Shown here in pieces: positions 407 through 8,826 of a DNA stretch of 10,827 nucleotides (position 1 is the first letter of the stretch; each line of letters opens with the position of its first letter). Source of the stretch: Candidatus Poribacteria bacterium. GTDB taxonomy: Bacteria; Poribacteria; DTPJ01; WJIO01. The notes beneath the pieces are model-generated. The model made no database searches. It was given only the letters and a program-made list of their open reading frames with translations, and was not told the origin of the DNA. Location of the stretch: the NCBI GenBank assembly GCA_014730235.1, contig WJIO01000196.1:1-10827 (forward strand). The letters run 5' to 3'. Position numbers and translations under genes: made by a program.

Positions 407-570
407 GGATCTTCCGAATTGAGTGTGGAAATAATTTAAAAACTTTCTAAGTATGCATTCCTGAGAAAGCAGGAATTCAATATTTATGCGGATCTACTGG
501 ATTCCTGCTTTCGCAGGAATGACAAGCTGAGGGAATTTTCAATTATAACAACACTAAACCCGGAAGAACC
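407..570. mobile_element. 164-bp MITE-like element, copy 1
   Basis: The element has a left arm (407-455), a core (456-521) and a right arm (522-570). The outer ends are inverted repeats fitting GGNNCTTCCGRRTTNAGTGT. The core has a 20-bp hairpin unit at each end, of the form ATTCC-N10-GGAAT, around a spacer of about 24 bp. The 8 bases just outside each end are ATACATTT (399-406) and ATATATTT (571-578), 7 of 8 identical, as expected for an aged target-site duplication. There is no coding capacity, so it would need a transposase supplied from elsewhere. The right arm, read on the minus strand, matches the left arm of copy 2 at 46 of 49 positions. Confidence 0.75.
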
Positions 571-856
571 ATATATTTTAATCTTCCTCATAAAATAGAT
601 TTCTTGACAATTATTATTGCAAGACACATACCAACATCTTGTTTTCCATAAAAACACTATAAAGCCAGTATTATCAATACTTCCTATGCATATTTTATAG
701 ATGTAATACATTATTAGATGTATATTAACTGGGCACTAGAAGTTTACATTTAACCTTAAATCATCTGTAAATGCGCAACATAACTTGTTTTAAGCAAATG
801 ATCACAAACTATACACTAGTTTCGGGGTTTATTTCAATTTCAGAAAAAAACTCATA

Positions 857-885
857 TTGACAATAAATATCTAAAAAGTTAAACT
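857..885 (+). promoter_or_regulatory. Sigma-70-type promoter for the MBL gene
   Basis: A perfect -35 box TTGACA (857-862) is followed after 17 bp by TAAACT (880-885), which matches 4 of 6 consensus -10 bases. Transcription would begin near 892 and give a leader of about 55 nt before the ATG at 947. Spacing and position are ideal. It may also drive the downstream DUF4038-like and beta-helix genes. Confidence 0.55.
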
Positions 886-933
886 GTTTTTATCCATCAG
901 ATAAATTGTATTGCTGAATTGTTTTTTACTTTT

Positions 934-940
934 AAGGAGA
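934..940 (+). promoter_or_regulatory. Ribosome binding site fixing the MBL start
   Basis: AAGGAGA lies 6 nt before the ATG at 947. An in-frame TTG at 911 would extend the protein by 12 residues, but it has no Shine-Dalgarno, and using it would put this ribosome binding site inside the coding region. The ATG at 947 is therefore preferred. Confidence 0.8.
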
Positions 941-946
941 AATTTT

Positions 947-2776
947 ATGCCCACCAGCTATAATCAATTAAGCGAACATATCTATATTTATTATGGAAAC
1001 ATAAATGTCGGCATATTAAAAGATAACAACAGGGCTTTATTATTTGATTTTGGTGATGGCGCAGTATCCGAAATTCTGGATTTGATTGAAATAGATGAGA
1101 TAGATATGATTTTATTTACCCATCATCATAGGGATCAGGCATCGGGTATAAAAAAAATATCCAGCAGTGATATCCGATTGGGAGTTCCTGTTCAGGAAAT
1201 CCAGTGGTTTCAGGATGTGGAAAGCTTCTGGAACAATCCGGAAAAACGATGGCATATATACGATATACATCCCCATACCCTTATGCTTTCGGAATCCGTT
1301 AAAAATTTTGAAGTAACACCCTATAAGGGTGGAGATAATATAAAATGGGGGCAGGCCAGTATTTCAGTCATGGATACACACGGACATACTGACGGAAGCG
1401 TTTCTTATTTTGTAGAGGTCGATGGAAAAAAGATTGTATTTTCCGGGGATGTTATATATGACAAAGGTCAAATCTGGGAGCTTTACAGTCTTCAGAAAGG
1501 TGAAACTACCTCCGATTATCATGGCTTTTTAGGAAGTAGAAAAGAATTGAAATCAAGTCTGAATAAAATCCGTTCTATGAAGCCTGATATGCTGATACCT
1601 TCTCATGGCAGGATTATGAATAGACCTAAAGAAGCTGTAGATTTGCTGATAAAAAGGCTTGATGAATGTTATGATAAATACGTGGCTATTTCGGCCCTGC
1701 GGTATTATTTTCCCGAAATGTTTGCCAAATTCCAGGACAGAGAAGGGCATATGCCTATAAGAAAAGGTAAACCAAATCCTGAATTTTTACGCCATTTCGG
1801 GACTTCGTGGGTCATAATATCCGAATCGGGTAATGCCTTTGTGCTGGACTGCGGGGGACAGAACGTTATAAAACAACTTCAGGAAATGCAAAAATCAGGG
1901 GAGATAGAAGATATAGATGGCCTATGGATAACCCACTACCATGACGACCATGTGGATGCAATACCCAATTTCAAGAAAGTCTTCGGATGTCCTGTATATG
2001 CTGACTCCAGTGTGGCCATGATTGTGGAAAATCCCAGAGGATTTCGTTATCCATGTATATCCCCATCAGTAATTGATATAGATAATGTAACTAGGGATGG
2101 AGAATCCTGGAACTGGGAGGAATTTAAATTCACAGCTTATCATTTCCCGGGACAGACATATTATCACGGTGGCCTTTTGGTGGAAGGTAATGATTTAAAG
2201 CTTTTCTTTGCAGGAGATTCATTTACCATGTCGGGGATTGACGATTATTGTTCAGGCAACCGCAACTGGTTAGGCGAAAACACGGGCTTTGATCGATGTC
2301 TCAAACTCATGCAGGAGCTAAAACCCACTCACATTTTTAACTGCCATGTAGATACAGCCTTTGATTTCACCCAAGAAGAACTGGACTTCATACGGAAAAA
2401 CCTGAGTTATCGTGAGAAAATATACGGCGACCTTTTCCCCTGGGATTCACCAAATTATGGCATGGATGAATACTGGATCAGATGCTATCCATATGATCAG
2501 GATACAGAAGCCGGGAAAAATGTGGAATTATCTGCTAAAGTTTATAACCATTCAGAAAGGAAAAAATCTATTGTATGTAAACCAGAATTGCCAAAGGGAT
2601 GGGAAGAAGTAGCTGAAAAATCAACACAGGTAAAACCCAGGACCGAAGGTAGTCTGACTTTTAATATTAATGTGCCGAAAAACCTGGATAAGAGTATTCT
2701 GGTTATACCTTTTCATATAATCTATGATGGACGGAATTTGGGACAGTTTCGGGAGTCCATGTTGTTTATCAAATAG
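947..2776 (+). CDS. Tandem metallo-beta-lactamase-fold hydrolase with C-terminal beta-sandwich
   Basis: A 609-residue protein with two MBL-fold domains. Domain 1 (about 1-250) has the metal motif H59-H-H61-R-D63-Q64, then H147 in a THGHTDGS motif, D168 in SGDV and H220 in IPSHG. Domain 2 (about 275-490) has the canonical H330-Y-H332-D-D334-H335, D424 in AGDS and H467 in NCH. Its third histidine position, normally PGH, reads PGQ (Q403), with H407 nearby. Residues about 510-609 look like a small all-beta domain of the NEW3/NPCBM-associated type. There is no signal peptide, so it is probably cytoplasmic. By family it should be a di-metal hydrolase, but esters, lactones, phosphodiesters or thioesters are all possible and the substrate is unknown. 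Each domain keeps most of its ligands but lacks one. It is the first gene of a same-strand run, 116 bp (taking the TTG start) ahead of a DUF4038-like glycosidase, which suggests a role in glycan or lactone metabolism. The fold assignment is secure. Confidence 0.88.
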   Translation: MPTSYNQLSEHIYIYYGNINVGILKDNNRALLFDFGDGAVSEILDLIEIDEIDMILFTHHHRDQASGIKKISSSDIRLGVPVQEIQWFQDVESFWNNPEKRWHIYDIHPHTLMLSESVKNFEVTPYKGGDNIKWGQASISVMDTHGHTDGSVSYFVEVDGKKIVFSGDVIYDKGQIWELYSLQKGETTSDYHGFLGSRKELKSSLNKIRSMKPDMLIPSHGRIMNRPKEAVDLLIKRLDECYDKYVAISALRYYFPEMFAKFQDREGHMPIRKGKPNPEFLRHFGTSWVIISESGNAFVLDCGGQNVIKQLQEMQKSGEIEDIDGLWITHYHDDHVDAIPNFKKVFGCPVYADSSVAMIVENPRGFRYPCISPSVIDIDNVTRDGESWNWEEFKFTAYHFPGQTYYHGGLLVEGNDLKLFFAGDSFTMSGIDDYCSGNRNWLGENTGFDRCLKLMQELKPTHIFNCHVDTAFDFTQEELDFIRKNLSYREKIYGDLFPWDSPNYGMDEYWIRCYPYDQDTEAGKNVELSAKVYNHSERKKSIVCKPELPKGWEEVAEKSTQVKPRTEGSLTFNINVPKNLDKSILVIPFHIIYDGRNLGQFRESMLFIK

Positions 2777-2879
2777 CTTAATCTGAATGGTTTACTCGCT
2801 AAATAATAATCAATGATTTTCGTAGTAGTGTTACGGCATGCCTTGTACCTACTTAGTACACAGATTATCGTTAAACTAT

Positions 2880-2885
2880 GAGGTG
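2880..2885 (+). promoter_or_regulatory. Ribosome binding site for the signal-bearing start
   Basis: GAGGTG lies 7 nt before a TTG codon at 2893 that opens an M-KK-hydrophobic leader. An ATG at 2878 in the same frame has no Shine-Dalgarno upstream and overlaps this site. A second site, GGAGGT at 2955-2960, lies 4 nt before an in-frame ATG at 2965. The gene thus has two candidate initiation sites 72 nt apart. Confidence 0.5.
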
Positions 2886-2892
2886 GTCTTTT

Positions 2893-4263
2893 TTGAAAAA
2901 GCTAATTATCCTGATAATTTTAATTTCGTTATTAATATCCAACAACTCAAACCCGGAGGTAAACATGGACAGAATTCAGATATACAAAGAAAACCCCAGA
3001 TACTGGCAGTATAAGGGAAAGCCGGTTTTACTCATTGGCGGCTCAGTGGAGGACAACCTCTTCCAGATACCGGATATTAAAGAGCATCTCGACCTGTTAA
3101 GCTCTGTAGGCGGTAACTATGTCCGTTGCACCATGAGTTGCCGGGACGAGGGCAACGTGTGGCCCTTTAAGAAGGTTGGCGATCTGTATGAACTGGAACA
3201 ATGGAACGACGAGTTCTGGCGGCGTTTCAGCAACTTTCTGGAACTAACATCTCAGCGAGATATAATAATACAGATAGAGGTATGGGCTACCTTTGATTAC
3301 TATCGGGATAACTGGGAAGTAAACCCCTTTAATCCCAAAAACAACAGCACCTACACAGCCGAAGAGACCGGCCTTCCGACGGTTGTAAAGACCCATCCCA
3401 CCCGAACGGAAAATAACTTCTTCTGGTCTGTGCCAAAGGAGAACAACCAGCAAACAGTGTTGAAGTATCAGCATAAATTTGTAGAAAAGATGCTTTCTTA
3501 CTCCCTGAAATACGGCAACGTGCTTTACTGCATGGACAACGAAACCAGCGTTACACCGGCCTGGGGTGAATACTGGTCAAACTACATCAAGGACAGGGCG
3601 AAGGAAGCCGGTGTAAGCGTTGAAACCACCGAGATGTGGGACGCATGGGATTTATCCCACAAACAACACAAGAATACCTTTGACCATCCTGAAACCTACT
3701 CCTTCTGTGACATATCCCAGAATAACCACCAAAAGGGCCAGACTCATTGGGATAACACACAGAAATTCCGGGCTGAATTATCACTCCTCAGACCCATAAA
3801 CAACATCAAGATATATGGTGCGGATACAGGGCGTTTCGGGGATGATCGGGACGGCCTGGAAAGGTTCTGGCGTAATGTATTGGGAGGATTCGCATCTGCC
3901 CGATTCCATCGCCCGGATTCGGGGCAGGGGTTAAATGAAAATGCCCAGAATCATCTCAAAAGTATGAGAATGCTGGCTGACAGCATGGATATATTTACCT
4001 GCAAACCCGGCAACGATTTGCTGTCAAACCGCAGTGAAAACAGCGCATATCTCACATCAAACCCCGGCATCGAGTATGCCGTATTCTTCCCCAACGGTGA
4101 ACCTGTGGATATTAATCTTAAAGATGCTGAAGGTAATATAAAGGCAAGATGGCTGGACATTGCCAAAAGCCAATGGGCCAAGGATGAAATTCTACCGGGC
4201 GGTAAAGTTGTTACTTTGACACCTCCCGGAAAAGGTTACTGGGCCGTATTGATGAATAGGTAA
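2893..4263 (+). CDS. DUF4038-like glycoside hydrolase, (beta/alpha)8 fold, putative exported
   Basis: From the TTG at 2893 the protein has 456 residues; from the ATG at 2878, 461. Numbering here uses 2878. Residues 6-21 form a Lys-Lys plus hydrophobic leader (KKLIILIILISLLIS), a signal peptide or membrane anchor without a lipobox Cys. The rest fits a DUF4038-like barrel: YKGKPVLLIGG near 45-55, VGGNYVRCTM near 77-86 and an IIIQIEVW strand at 129-136. A D-N221-E222-T motif at the end of a strand matches the Asn-Glu acid/base pair of clan GH-A. The nucleophile strand is not clear to me; IKIYGADTGRFGD (310-322) is a candidate region. About 375-461 is a small beta domain ending in TPPGKGYWAVL, like the C-terminal sandwich that often follows DUF4038. 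The gene ends 12 bp before the beta-helix gene, whose ribosome binding site overlaps this stop. The ATG at 2965 would give a 432-residue form without the leader. Glycosidase activity is inferred and the substrate is unknown. Confidence 0.8.
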   Translation: MKKLIILIILISLLISNNSNPEVNMDRIQIYKENPRYWQYKGKPVLLIGGSVEDNLFQIPDIKEHLDLLSSVGGNYVRCTMSCRDEGNVWPFKKVGDLYELEQWNDEFWRRFSNFLELTSQRDIIIQIEVWATFDYYRDNWEVNPFNPKNNSTYTAEETGLPTVVKTHPTRTENNFFWSVPKENNQQTVLKYQHKFVEKMLSYSLKYGNVLYCMDNETSVTPAWGEYWSNYIKDRAKEAGVSVETTEMWDAWDLSHKQHKNTFDHPETYSFCDISQNNHQKGQTHWDNTQKFRAELSLLRPINNIKIYGADTGRFGDDRDGLERFWRNVLGGFASARFHRPDSGQGLNENAQNHLKSMRMLADSMDIFTCKPGNDLLSNRSENSAYLTSNPGIEYAVFFPNGEPVDINLKDAEGNIKARWLDIAKSQWAKDEILPGGKVVTLTPPGKGYWAVLMNR

Positions 4264-4275
4264 AGGAGCTTCATT

Positions 4276-6090
4276 ATGTATTGTATAAAGAAAAAGTCAC
4301 TTAACCCACCGGTATTCCTGCCCGATGGTTCAGAGTTTAAGACATGGGAAGAACAATTAAGCTTCACTAAAACCTATTGGGTGGATAACTCCAATCCCTC
4401 GGCATCGGATGATAATCCGGGAAGCAGAAATGAACCTTTTCGCAGTATAAACCGGGCGGCTAAGCTTTTGCAACCCGGGGAAAGGGTGGTTGTAAAAGCT
4501 GGCGTGTATCGCGAATGTGTAAAACCCGTAAGAGGCGGTCTGAGTCCTGATAAGATGATCAGCTACCAGGCCGAACCGGGGGTTATAATAAAGGGTTCTG
4601 AGTCAGTAACCGGTGGTTGGGAATTTGCTGAGGAATGGAATTACTCCCGGGATGAATATAAAATCTGGACTCTGGAACTAGACAAGTTAATTAAGGGGTC
4701 ATATAATCCTTTTGGTGTTATTAATCTGCCTAAGTTTGTGGCTCAGACATGTTTTACGCCGCTACCGGAGCTTATGTCCGGTCTTTTGGGTCGTCGGGGA
4801 TTGGTTTTTCAGGATGGCAAACCTCTCAAGCAGGTGAGTAAATACTCCGATCTGCATACATCCGACGGAACATACTGGACGGAAGCAAACGGACAGGTTA
4901 TTCATGTAAGGTTTTATGATGATATTGATCCAGACGTAGCGGAAATAGAGATCACAACCCGGGAACAGGCTTTTGCCCCGGTTGAATATGGTCTGGGATT
5001 TATACATGTAAGTGGTTTTGCCATCGAACAGGTAGCCGACGGTTTCCCCTGGCCCCAACGGGCGGCTTTATCAACCATGCGTGGACATCACTGGATTATT
5101 GAGGACAACACCATAAGATGGTCAAATGCCCTGGGTATTGACGTTGGCAGGTCTGAGGTTGATATGAAACTGCCGGAGAAATGCGGTTATCATATTGTAA
5201 GAAGAAACACTGTAGAGGACTGCGGAATATGCGGCATAGCTGGAACAGGCCCATTAAAAGAAACGCTTATTGAAGAAAACCAGATCAGCCGATGTGGATG
5301 GCATAATGTAGAAAGATATTACGAATGTGCCGGTATCAAAACCCATCATAACCATGATACCCTTATCCGAAGAAATGTCATCAGGGACATGATGAACGCA
5401 TCGGGAATATGGATGGACTATGGAAACCAGAACTCCCGGTGTTGTGAAAACGTAATCATAAATACAGATTCCATATTTGGCGGCATATTCATGGAAGCGT
5501 CTCATATTCCCTGTATGGTGGATAACAACTTTATATGGGGTTCAACAAGTCATGGTATATATGAACATGATACAGACTATCTCACCATTGCCCATAACTT
5601 CATAGCGCATGCCGACGGCGCGGGGATATGCCTGAAACTGGGGCAAACTGATCGCTGGGTGAATGGTCGGGGTGCTACCGCCCGAAAACACCGGGTTTTG
5701 AATAATGTTATTACAAACTGCGGTCGCCTGATAGAAATATCCAATATTGATAACGTTTCAGATGGAAACATTTTTGGTTCTCACTCAGAACAGGGCCCAC
5801 TTCGCATCCTGAGACCTGTGGAAAACCATAATTTCAAAAGCTGGCAGGATTTCATGAGTTGGGATTTAAACGGAGTCCAGGGAAACGTTGAGGCTGCATT
5901 TGATCCTGAAGCACTGATCCTGAAATGGTACTTTGATGGTGAAATACCCGAATGCGAGCCGGTTGAGGGTATACTTGAGGATATAATCGGCACAGCGCGA
6001 CCCACAAATAAAGTCGAACCCGGGCCCTTTGCCAAAGTTCCCGATAAACCAAGTCAGATTTATCTCGATCCTCGCCGCCACAAGAGATAA
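4276..6090 (+). CDS. Right-handed parallel beta-helix protein
   Basis: A 604-residue protein. After a short N-terminal tail, residues 34-86 (YWVDNSNPS, DDNPGS..PFRSINRAAKLLQPGERVVVKAGVYRE) are the typical opening of DUF1565/pectate-lyase-like helix proteins. An inserted beta-rich segment lies around 110-235. Then come repeated short turns of the NNxI/ENxI type (EDNTIRWS, RRNTVEDCG, EENQISRCG, RRNVIRDM, ENVIINT, DNNFIW, HNFIAHA, NNVITNCG) from about 276 to 482. Such folds bind or cleave acidic or branched polysaccharides, acting as lyases, hydrolases or epimerases; catalytic residues cannot be assigned. The start is fixed by AAGGAG at 4263-4268, 7 nt upstream and overlapping the previous stop codon, which implies coupling to the DUF4038-like gene. 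No signal peptide is visible at the N-terminus (MYCIKKKSLNPP), which is unusual for a polysaccharide-active beta-helix. The first residues could be a leader-less export form, or the protein may work in the cytoplasm. Confidence 0.85.
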   Translation: MYCIKKKSLNPPVFLPDGSEFKTWEEQLSFTKTYWVDNSNPSASDDNPGSRNEPFRSINRAAKLLQPGERVVVKAGVYRECVKPVRGGLSPDKMISYQAEPGVIIKGSESVTGGWEFAEEWNYSRDEYKIWTLELDKLIKGSYNPFGVINLPKFVAQTCFTPLPELMSGLLGRRGLVFQDGKPLKQVSKYSDLHTSDGTYWTEANGQVIHVRFYDDIDPDVAEIEITTREQAFAPVEYGLGFIHVSGFAIEQVADGFPWPQRAALSTMRGHHWIIEDNTIRWSNALGIDVGRSEVDMKLPEKCGYHIVRRNTVEDCGICGIAGTGPLKETLIEENQISRCGWHNVERYYECAGIKTHHNHDTLIRRNVIRDMMNASGIWMDYGNQNSRCCENVIINTDSIFGGIFMEASHIPCMVDNNFIWGSTSHGIYEHDTDYLTIAHNFIAHADGAGICLKLGQTDRWVNGRGATARKHRVLNNVITNCGRLIEISNIDNVSDGNIFGSHSEQGPLRILRPVENHNFKSWQDFMSWDLNGVQGNVEAAFDPEALILKWYFDGEIPECEPVEGILEDIIGTARPTNKVEPGPFAKVPDKPSQIYLDPRRHKR

Positions 6091-6105
6091 TTTATATACA
6101 AATTT

Positions 6106-6269
6106 GGTTCTTCCGGGTTAAGTGTGGTTATAATTGAAAATTTCCTCAGCTTGTCATTCCTGCGAAAGCAGGAATACAGTCTTTATGCCGATCTACTGGA
6201 TTTCTGTTTTCGCAGGAATGACAGCATAAAGAAGTTTCTTATCTTTACCACACTGAACCCGGAAGTGCC
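6106..6269. mobile_element. 164-bp MITE-like element, copy 2, with 8-bp target duplication
   Basis: Left arm 6106-6154, core 6155-6220 and right arm 6221-6269, exactly the same partition as copy 1. The terminal inverted repeats fit GGNNCTTCCGRRTTNAGTGT. The element is flanked by the perfect direct repeat ACAAATTT at 6098-6105 and 6270-6277, a target-site duplication that defines both ends to the base. The insertion lies 7 bp after the stop codon of the beta-helix gene. The left hairpin unit of the core, at 6156-6175, is an 8-bp stem closed by a GAAA loop on the plus strand. GG-ended repeats with 8-bp AT-rich duplications are, from memory, typical of the ISL3 family; IS66-type elements also make 8-bp duplications. 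Confidence 0.85.
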
Positions 6270-6305
6270 ACAAATTTTTATTGTTTGACGACGTAAAATT
6301 AATTG

Positions 6306-6342
6306 TATAGATTGGGTTTGGAAAATCCAAACCCAATCTATA
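6306..6342. terminator. Perfect 17-bp hairpin between convergent genes
   Basis: Positions 6306-6322 pair without a mismatch with 6326-6342 around a 3-nt AAA loop. The hairpin lies 20 bp beyond the stop codon of the minus-strand URO-D gene and downstream of the plus-strand beta-helix gene. It is therefore placed to end transcription from both sides. On the minus strand the stem is followed by a broken T-rich tract (ACAATTAATTTTA), and on the plus strand by only a short one (ACTTTTC), so it is not a textbook poly-U terminator. Confidence 0.7.
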
Positions 6343-6362
6343 TAAGACTTTTCAACTACTAA

Positions 6363-8663: not shown

Positions 8664-8691
8664 TTAGTAATCGTTAAAAAATGGATATAAT
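8664..8691 (+). promoter_or_regulatory. Possible promoter for the transporter-GH4 pair
   Basis: TATAAT at 8686-8691 is a perfect -10 box, but the upstream TTAGTA at 8664-8669 (16-bp spacing) matches only 3 of 6 -35 bases. If used, transcription would begin near 8698 and the inverted repeat at 8704-8765 would form at the very 5' end of the transcript. Confidence 0.3.
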
Positions 8692-8703
8692 TTAGTTGTC
8701 ATT

Positions 8704-8765
8704 TCCTGCGAAAGCATGAATCCAGAAAACACATTATGAAGGACTGGATTTATGCTTTCGCAGGA
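8704..8765. repeat. Core-type inverted repeat, copy 3
   Basis: A 22-bp arm (8704-8725) pairs with 8744-8765 with one mismatch that is G-U compatible, around an 18-nt loop. The outer bases (TCCTGCGAAAGCA) are the same hairpin unit found in the cores of the two 164-bp elements. However, the loop sequence differs and no matching pair of terminal arms or target duplication surrounds it. It lies 90 bp after the GH20-like stop and 61 bp before the transporter start. It could act as a terminator or as a leader hairpin, though no T tract follows. Confidence 0.7.
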
Positions 8766-8826
8766 ATGGGCATATGACTATATTTGTTGAGTATTAAGCC
8801 AGCTTTATTCATATCAGGAGATTTTT

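Follow-up and report, generated by a model that had tools for sequence, protein, structure and literature searches.

Hairpin cores in either orientation relative to the arms in an ISL3-type MITE family of a Candidatus Poribacteria genome

Two palindromic elements in the window, the 10,827-nucleotide stretch of Candidatus Poribacteria DNA analysed here, belong with their relatives to an ISL3-type MITE family in which a central hairpin core is found in both orientations relative to the arms. We consider it somewhat probable (roughly 55%) that the flipped cores were generated by template switching or by hairpin/cruciform recombination within this MITE, and that transposition spread both forms. 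Palindromic MITEs are commonly treated as fixed units. The genome described here carries about 400 copies with a modular, nested and orientation-free interior, and the direction of an element as read from one arm can conflict with that read from the core.

Both window elements are 164-bp arm-core-arm palindromes with different second arms, copy 1 having the layout C-core-A' and copy 2 the layout A-core-B'. They fold much better than shuffled sequences, with DNA z-scores of -11.6 and -7.3. Their parts are as follows.

399-406, no strand: left target duplication of copy 1 (ATACATTT), identical to 571-578 at 7 of 8 positions, in an 8-bp register set on 135 copies
407-455, + strand: left arm of copy 1, type C, with the ISL3-type terminal repeat GGATCTTCCGAATTGAGTGTGG (alignment and arm typing)
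454-523, + strand: core hairpin of copy 1, 70-bp class, with the spacer in the TCTTTATGCGGATCTA direction on the + strand
481-496, + strand: directional spacer of copy 1 (TATTTATGCGGATCTA), from a pattern match with one mismatch (C122:481-500)
522-570, - strand: right arm of copy 1, type A when read on the - strand, 46 of 49 positions matching 6106-6154
571-578, no strand: right target duplication of copy 1 (ATATATTT), in the 8-bp register
6098-6105, no strand: left target duplication of copy 2 (ACAAATTT), 8 of 8 positions matching 6270-6277
6106-6154, + strand: left arm of copy 2, type A, with the terminal repeat GGTTCTTCCGGGTTAAGTGTGG (alignment and arm typing)
6153-6222, + strand: core hairpin of copy 2, 70-bp class, with the spacer direction of copy 1
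6180-6195, + strand: directional spacer of copy 2 (TCTTTATGCCGATCTA), from a pattern match
6221-6269, - strand: right arm of copy 2, type B (alignment and arm typing)
6270-6277, no strand: right target duplication of copy 2 (ACAAATTT), 8 of 8 positions matching 6098-6105

An earlier, sequence-only reading had matched the left arm of copy 2 (6106-6154) to the reverse complement of the right arm of copy 1 (522-570) at 46 of 49 positions, and the two cores (456-521 and 6155-6220) in the same direction at 59 of 66. Realignment returned both values, and 51 of 66 with one core reversed. The remaining arm pairings between the two copies are just 29-34 of 49 identical, so that arm A truly has opposite polarity with respect to the core in copies 1 and 2. 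Because the cores are near-palindromes (50-52 of 66 positions identical to their own reverse complement), direction is carried only by the central 16-24 nucleotides, TCTTTATGCGGATCTA and its neighbours. The opposed arm/core pattern is far above chance and was seen again in dozens of copies. That the elements point in opposite directions is correct for arm A, the one arm from which it had been concluded; the second arms are of types C and B. The further claim, that the core has flipped relative to the arms in one copy, applies at the level of the family, where orientation is not fixed. Within the window pair a flip looks the same as an arm exchange, since copy 1 carries no arm of type B, and the marker of the main inverted lineage is missing from its core.

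The assignment to an ISL3-type MITE follows from the ISL3-matching ends and the 8-bp target duplications. In the host assembly, a single MAG of 5.53 Mb in 451 contigs (91.6% complete, 4.8% contamination), terminal half-sites (CTTCCGGGTTNAGTGTGG, at most 2 mismatches) number 394 plus 406 genome-wide, against 0-1 for a reversed control, from which we estimate about 400 copies of these short (roughly 110-200 bp), non-coding, dispersed palindromes. A sample of 137 distinct elements was taken from fetched loci and 20-kb tiles. Perfect 8-bp flank duplications were present in 51 of 135 copies and another 30 matched at 7 of 8 positions, with registers 7 and 9 far weaker and a match of at least 7 of 8 expected in 2.7% of random pairings. 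The distribution is bimodal, with duplications matching at 7-8 positions in about 60% of the checked copies and no matching ones in about 40%. In other phyla the terminal repeat also bounds complete ISL3-family insertion sequences, whose transposases match PF01610; the repeat was not found in viral contigs. ISL3 transposases in the host genome are represented by fragments only, located at contig ends, one of which has a similar end (GGTTCATCCGGTTAATGCGTAG) beside its stop codon. Mobility is presumably provided in trans by a transposase of the ISL3 family. The window had no match in Rfam, and no paper turned up in a text search for the core sequence.

Core orientation was scored across the A/B elements with 70- or 111-bp cores, with arm A placed on the left. 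Both orientations occur, 22 plus and 17 minus, and the fixed orientation that the sequence-only reading had named as evidence against itself was not seen. Of the window pair, copy 2 scores as plus and copy 1, on the basis of its sole A arm, as minus. Intact target duplications are equally common in the two classes (12 of 22 plus and 9 of 17 minus copies). The 111-bp composite core is found in a 4:4 ratio and flips as a rigid unit, which places the breakpoints in its outermost inverted repeat of about 15 bp. On a tree of the arms, 8 changes of orientation are required (bootstrap 8-11; 13 when shuffled), two of them forced by well-supported branches. Orientation thus appears clustered and yet repeatedly changed, with a small tree signal from arms too short for a firm tree. 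The core marker T25 is present in 8 of 11 minus copies and 1 of 18 plus copies (P = 0.0003), which means that many minus copies share an origin and that independent flips are fewer than flipped copies. An identical-flank search for one locus with two core orientations returned no true pair among the matches listed, which came from shared target sequences and from nesting within a different repeat.

The clearest case of inversion is provided by elements L036 (plus) and L006 (minus), which occupy separate loci (C175 and C77, with target duplications matching at 8/8 and 7/8 positions, respectively) and are mutually nearest by both arms and core among 30. Their left arms are identical at 47 of 47 positions and their right arms at 45 of 47, while the cores agree at 57 of 70 positions directly and at 69 of 70 with one of them inverted. 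We regard this pair as decisive for an apparent inversion of the core with all else kept, the spacer being inverted between unchanged flanking arms. It is the only clean sister pair with an inverted core.

The stems point to copying within the hairpin. Across 42 cores, complementary changes on both sides of the stem were counted 18 times, against 3.4 expected and a maximum of 9 in 1000 shuffles, although the count is inflated by shared ancestry, as relatedness was not fully removed. Template switching between inverted repeats has been reported to give arm homogenisation together with spacer inversion (PMC8604942; PMC8794818), and we favour it because stem homogenisation with spacer inversion is this published signature. 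Most spacer inversions in the literature are far smaller, at 2-5 bp in coding DNA (PMC8604942). In the proposed model, the inverted repeats of the core (about 15-27 bp) would promote a template switch by DNA polymerase, or hairpin/cruciform recombination. Either event would copy one stem onto the other and leave the central spacer, or the whole core, inverted relative to the arms, and both core forms would then be multiplied by transposition. We infer that template switching was the molecular step, and that most flipped copies, copy 1 of the window included, were made by inversion and not by arm exchange. A family of this kind would allow template switching, loop inversion and inter-copy exchange to be measured purely from sequence.

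The interior of the family is modular. At the centre of the MITE lies a portable hairpin core (GTCATTCC...GGAATGAC), also present in at least two unrelated outer elements, here named F2 and F3. Every arm extends from the terminal repeat as far as a shared GTCATTCCTGC. A and B are the commonest arms (A/B elements make up 88 of 137), C, D and E are present too, and core classes of 26, 47, 67, 70, 71 and 111 bp, plus rare others, are found with arms A-E in many combinations. In about 13 hybrids, an ISL3-MITE arm is joined across the core to an arm of F2 or F3. The family shows how MITE families gain new interiors. The 26-bp class, with loop GAAA in 20 and TTTC in 15 A/B elements, was set aside as a source of extra flips, because both forms can derive from the 70-bp core through loss of 44 bp between direct repeats (GCAGGAAT or ATTCCTGC). 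In some cases a larger repeat with CCAAGCATAAATTTTATGTC at its boundaries encloses the ISL3-MITE (L147:3299, L067:2481, L099:5056 and others; 52 half-sites in 0.95 Mb), so that one genome holds three levels of nested repeats. In G001, a genome of the same order, a related core lies inside an unrelated outer sequence (AAATGTGGAGCATTTTCATTTTTATATGGC...; L164-L173), often at contig ends. The window contains one further hairpin of this type:

8697-8768, + strand: third core-type hairpin, found among the window repeats, with a different spacer and without ISL3-type ends; an F2-type arm adjoins it at about 8664-8696

Together, this hairpin and its F2-type arm (GTAATCGTTAAAAAATGGATATAATTTAGTT) make the segment 8664-8782 a member or hybrid of another outer-element family. 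It is conceivable, but unlikely, that the core serves as a portable site devoted to recombination, a symmetric hub where cassettes of several unrelated MITE families are repeatedly exchanged and inverted, by a recombinase or by the replication machinery, so that new mobile elements arise combinatorially.

Homologous recombination or gene conversion among dispersed copies might instead have swapped arms or inserted the core either way, and copy 1 would then be an arm-swapped element whose core never flipped at its own site. Such exchange is feasible because an 11-bp sequence is shared by both core boundaries in a palindromic arrangement (GTCATTCCTGC...GCAGGAATGAC). The many arm and core combinations, the hybrids with F2 and F3 arms, the copies without matching duplications and the C arm in place of B in copy 1 all agree with it. 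Arm and core distances are uncorrelated, as are left and right arms; exchange would give both of these null correlations, and so would a star-like burst. Against exchange, L036 and L006 retain both arms and, apart from one base, the whole core, which would demand a conversion tract limited to the core and an inverted sister as donor, and intact target duplications are as frequent in flipped copies as in others. As the general explanation of the flipped cores, we hold exchange to be possible but doubtful. Exchange at the symmetric core boundary occurs as well, and could account for part of the data, copy 1 included.

The sequence-only reading had offered recombination between the two hairpin units, gene conversion and a site-specific invertase as mechanisms. 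Recombination or copying at the level of the hairpin and exchange between copies are supported by L036/L006, the homogenised stems and the hybrids; the invertase is not supported. An invertase flipping the core in place, with the core as its inversion site, would suit the near-equal orientation numbers (22:17), and four generic serine recombinase genes are present in the genome. However, no recombinase was seen among the scanned window genes, and, in a genome search covering serine and IS110/Piv-type recombinases, the core is absent from the two of the four serine-recombinase loci that were checked. Orientation is also partly tied to core lineage, unlike that of a freely switching site, and the related core in G001 has a single orientation in 7 of 7 complete copies read. 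We consider an invertase most improbable. An IS110/Piv-type variant was dropped, as the genome has no fitting gene.

False joining of cores and arms by short-read assembly of palindromic repeats was also considered. The MAG is fragmented, palindromes assemble badly, and many elements have no matching target duplications. Yet individual copies carry private arm and stem mutations, target duplications are far above chance in both orientation classes, three of four sister-group members lie well inside contigs, and a 150-base read, if that length was used, would cover the core and both arm junctions. An assembly artefact is therefore very unlikely.

Several known systems resemble this family in part. 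It shares with ISL3-family insertion sequences and MITEs the terminal repeat (GGYTCTTCCGGGTT...), the 8-bp target duplication and the small non-coding palindromes. Unlike ISL3-derived MITEs, it has a portable hairpin core as its interior, with no remnant of a transposase gene, and this core is common to other outer elements and occurs in both directions. As in template-switch inversions (PMC8604942, PMC8794818), stems are changed together on both sides and the spacer is inverted with the arms otherwise kept; here, in contrast, the inverted segment is larger (24-80 bp), a mobile element multiplies the products, and the event itself is deduced from sequence. The Correia elements of Neisseria and other nested bacterial MITEs (PMC2649163) are likewise short palindromes with inverted repeats, an inner core and intergenic dispersal, but have other ends and another sequence. 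Like REP/REPIN units with RAYT (Y1) transposases, the core is a dispersed hairpin, and it is close to them in size and shape, but this reading was dropped because the host has a single Y1_Tnp gene, and the core is missing at its locus. As in invertible promoters and invertons, a segment between inverted repeats occurs in both directions; in contrast to these, there are hundreds of dispersed copies, no linked invertase was found among the window genes scanned, and the orientations are compared between loci.

Immediately after copy 2, where genes converge, lies a 20-bp inverted repeat (6303-6345) that is near-perfect and has a 3-bp loop; it is likely a transcription terminator. The window genes between 911 and 10554 encode a metallo-beta-lactamase-fold protein, a putative collagen-binding domain protein, a right-handed beta-helix protein, a uroporphyrinogen decarboxylase-type protein, a GH20-type hydrolase and a sodium:solute symporter, a set that looks like a carbohydrate-use cluster.
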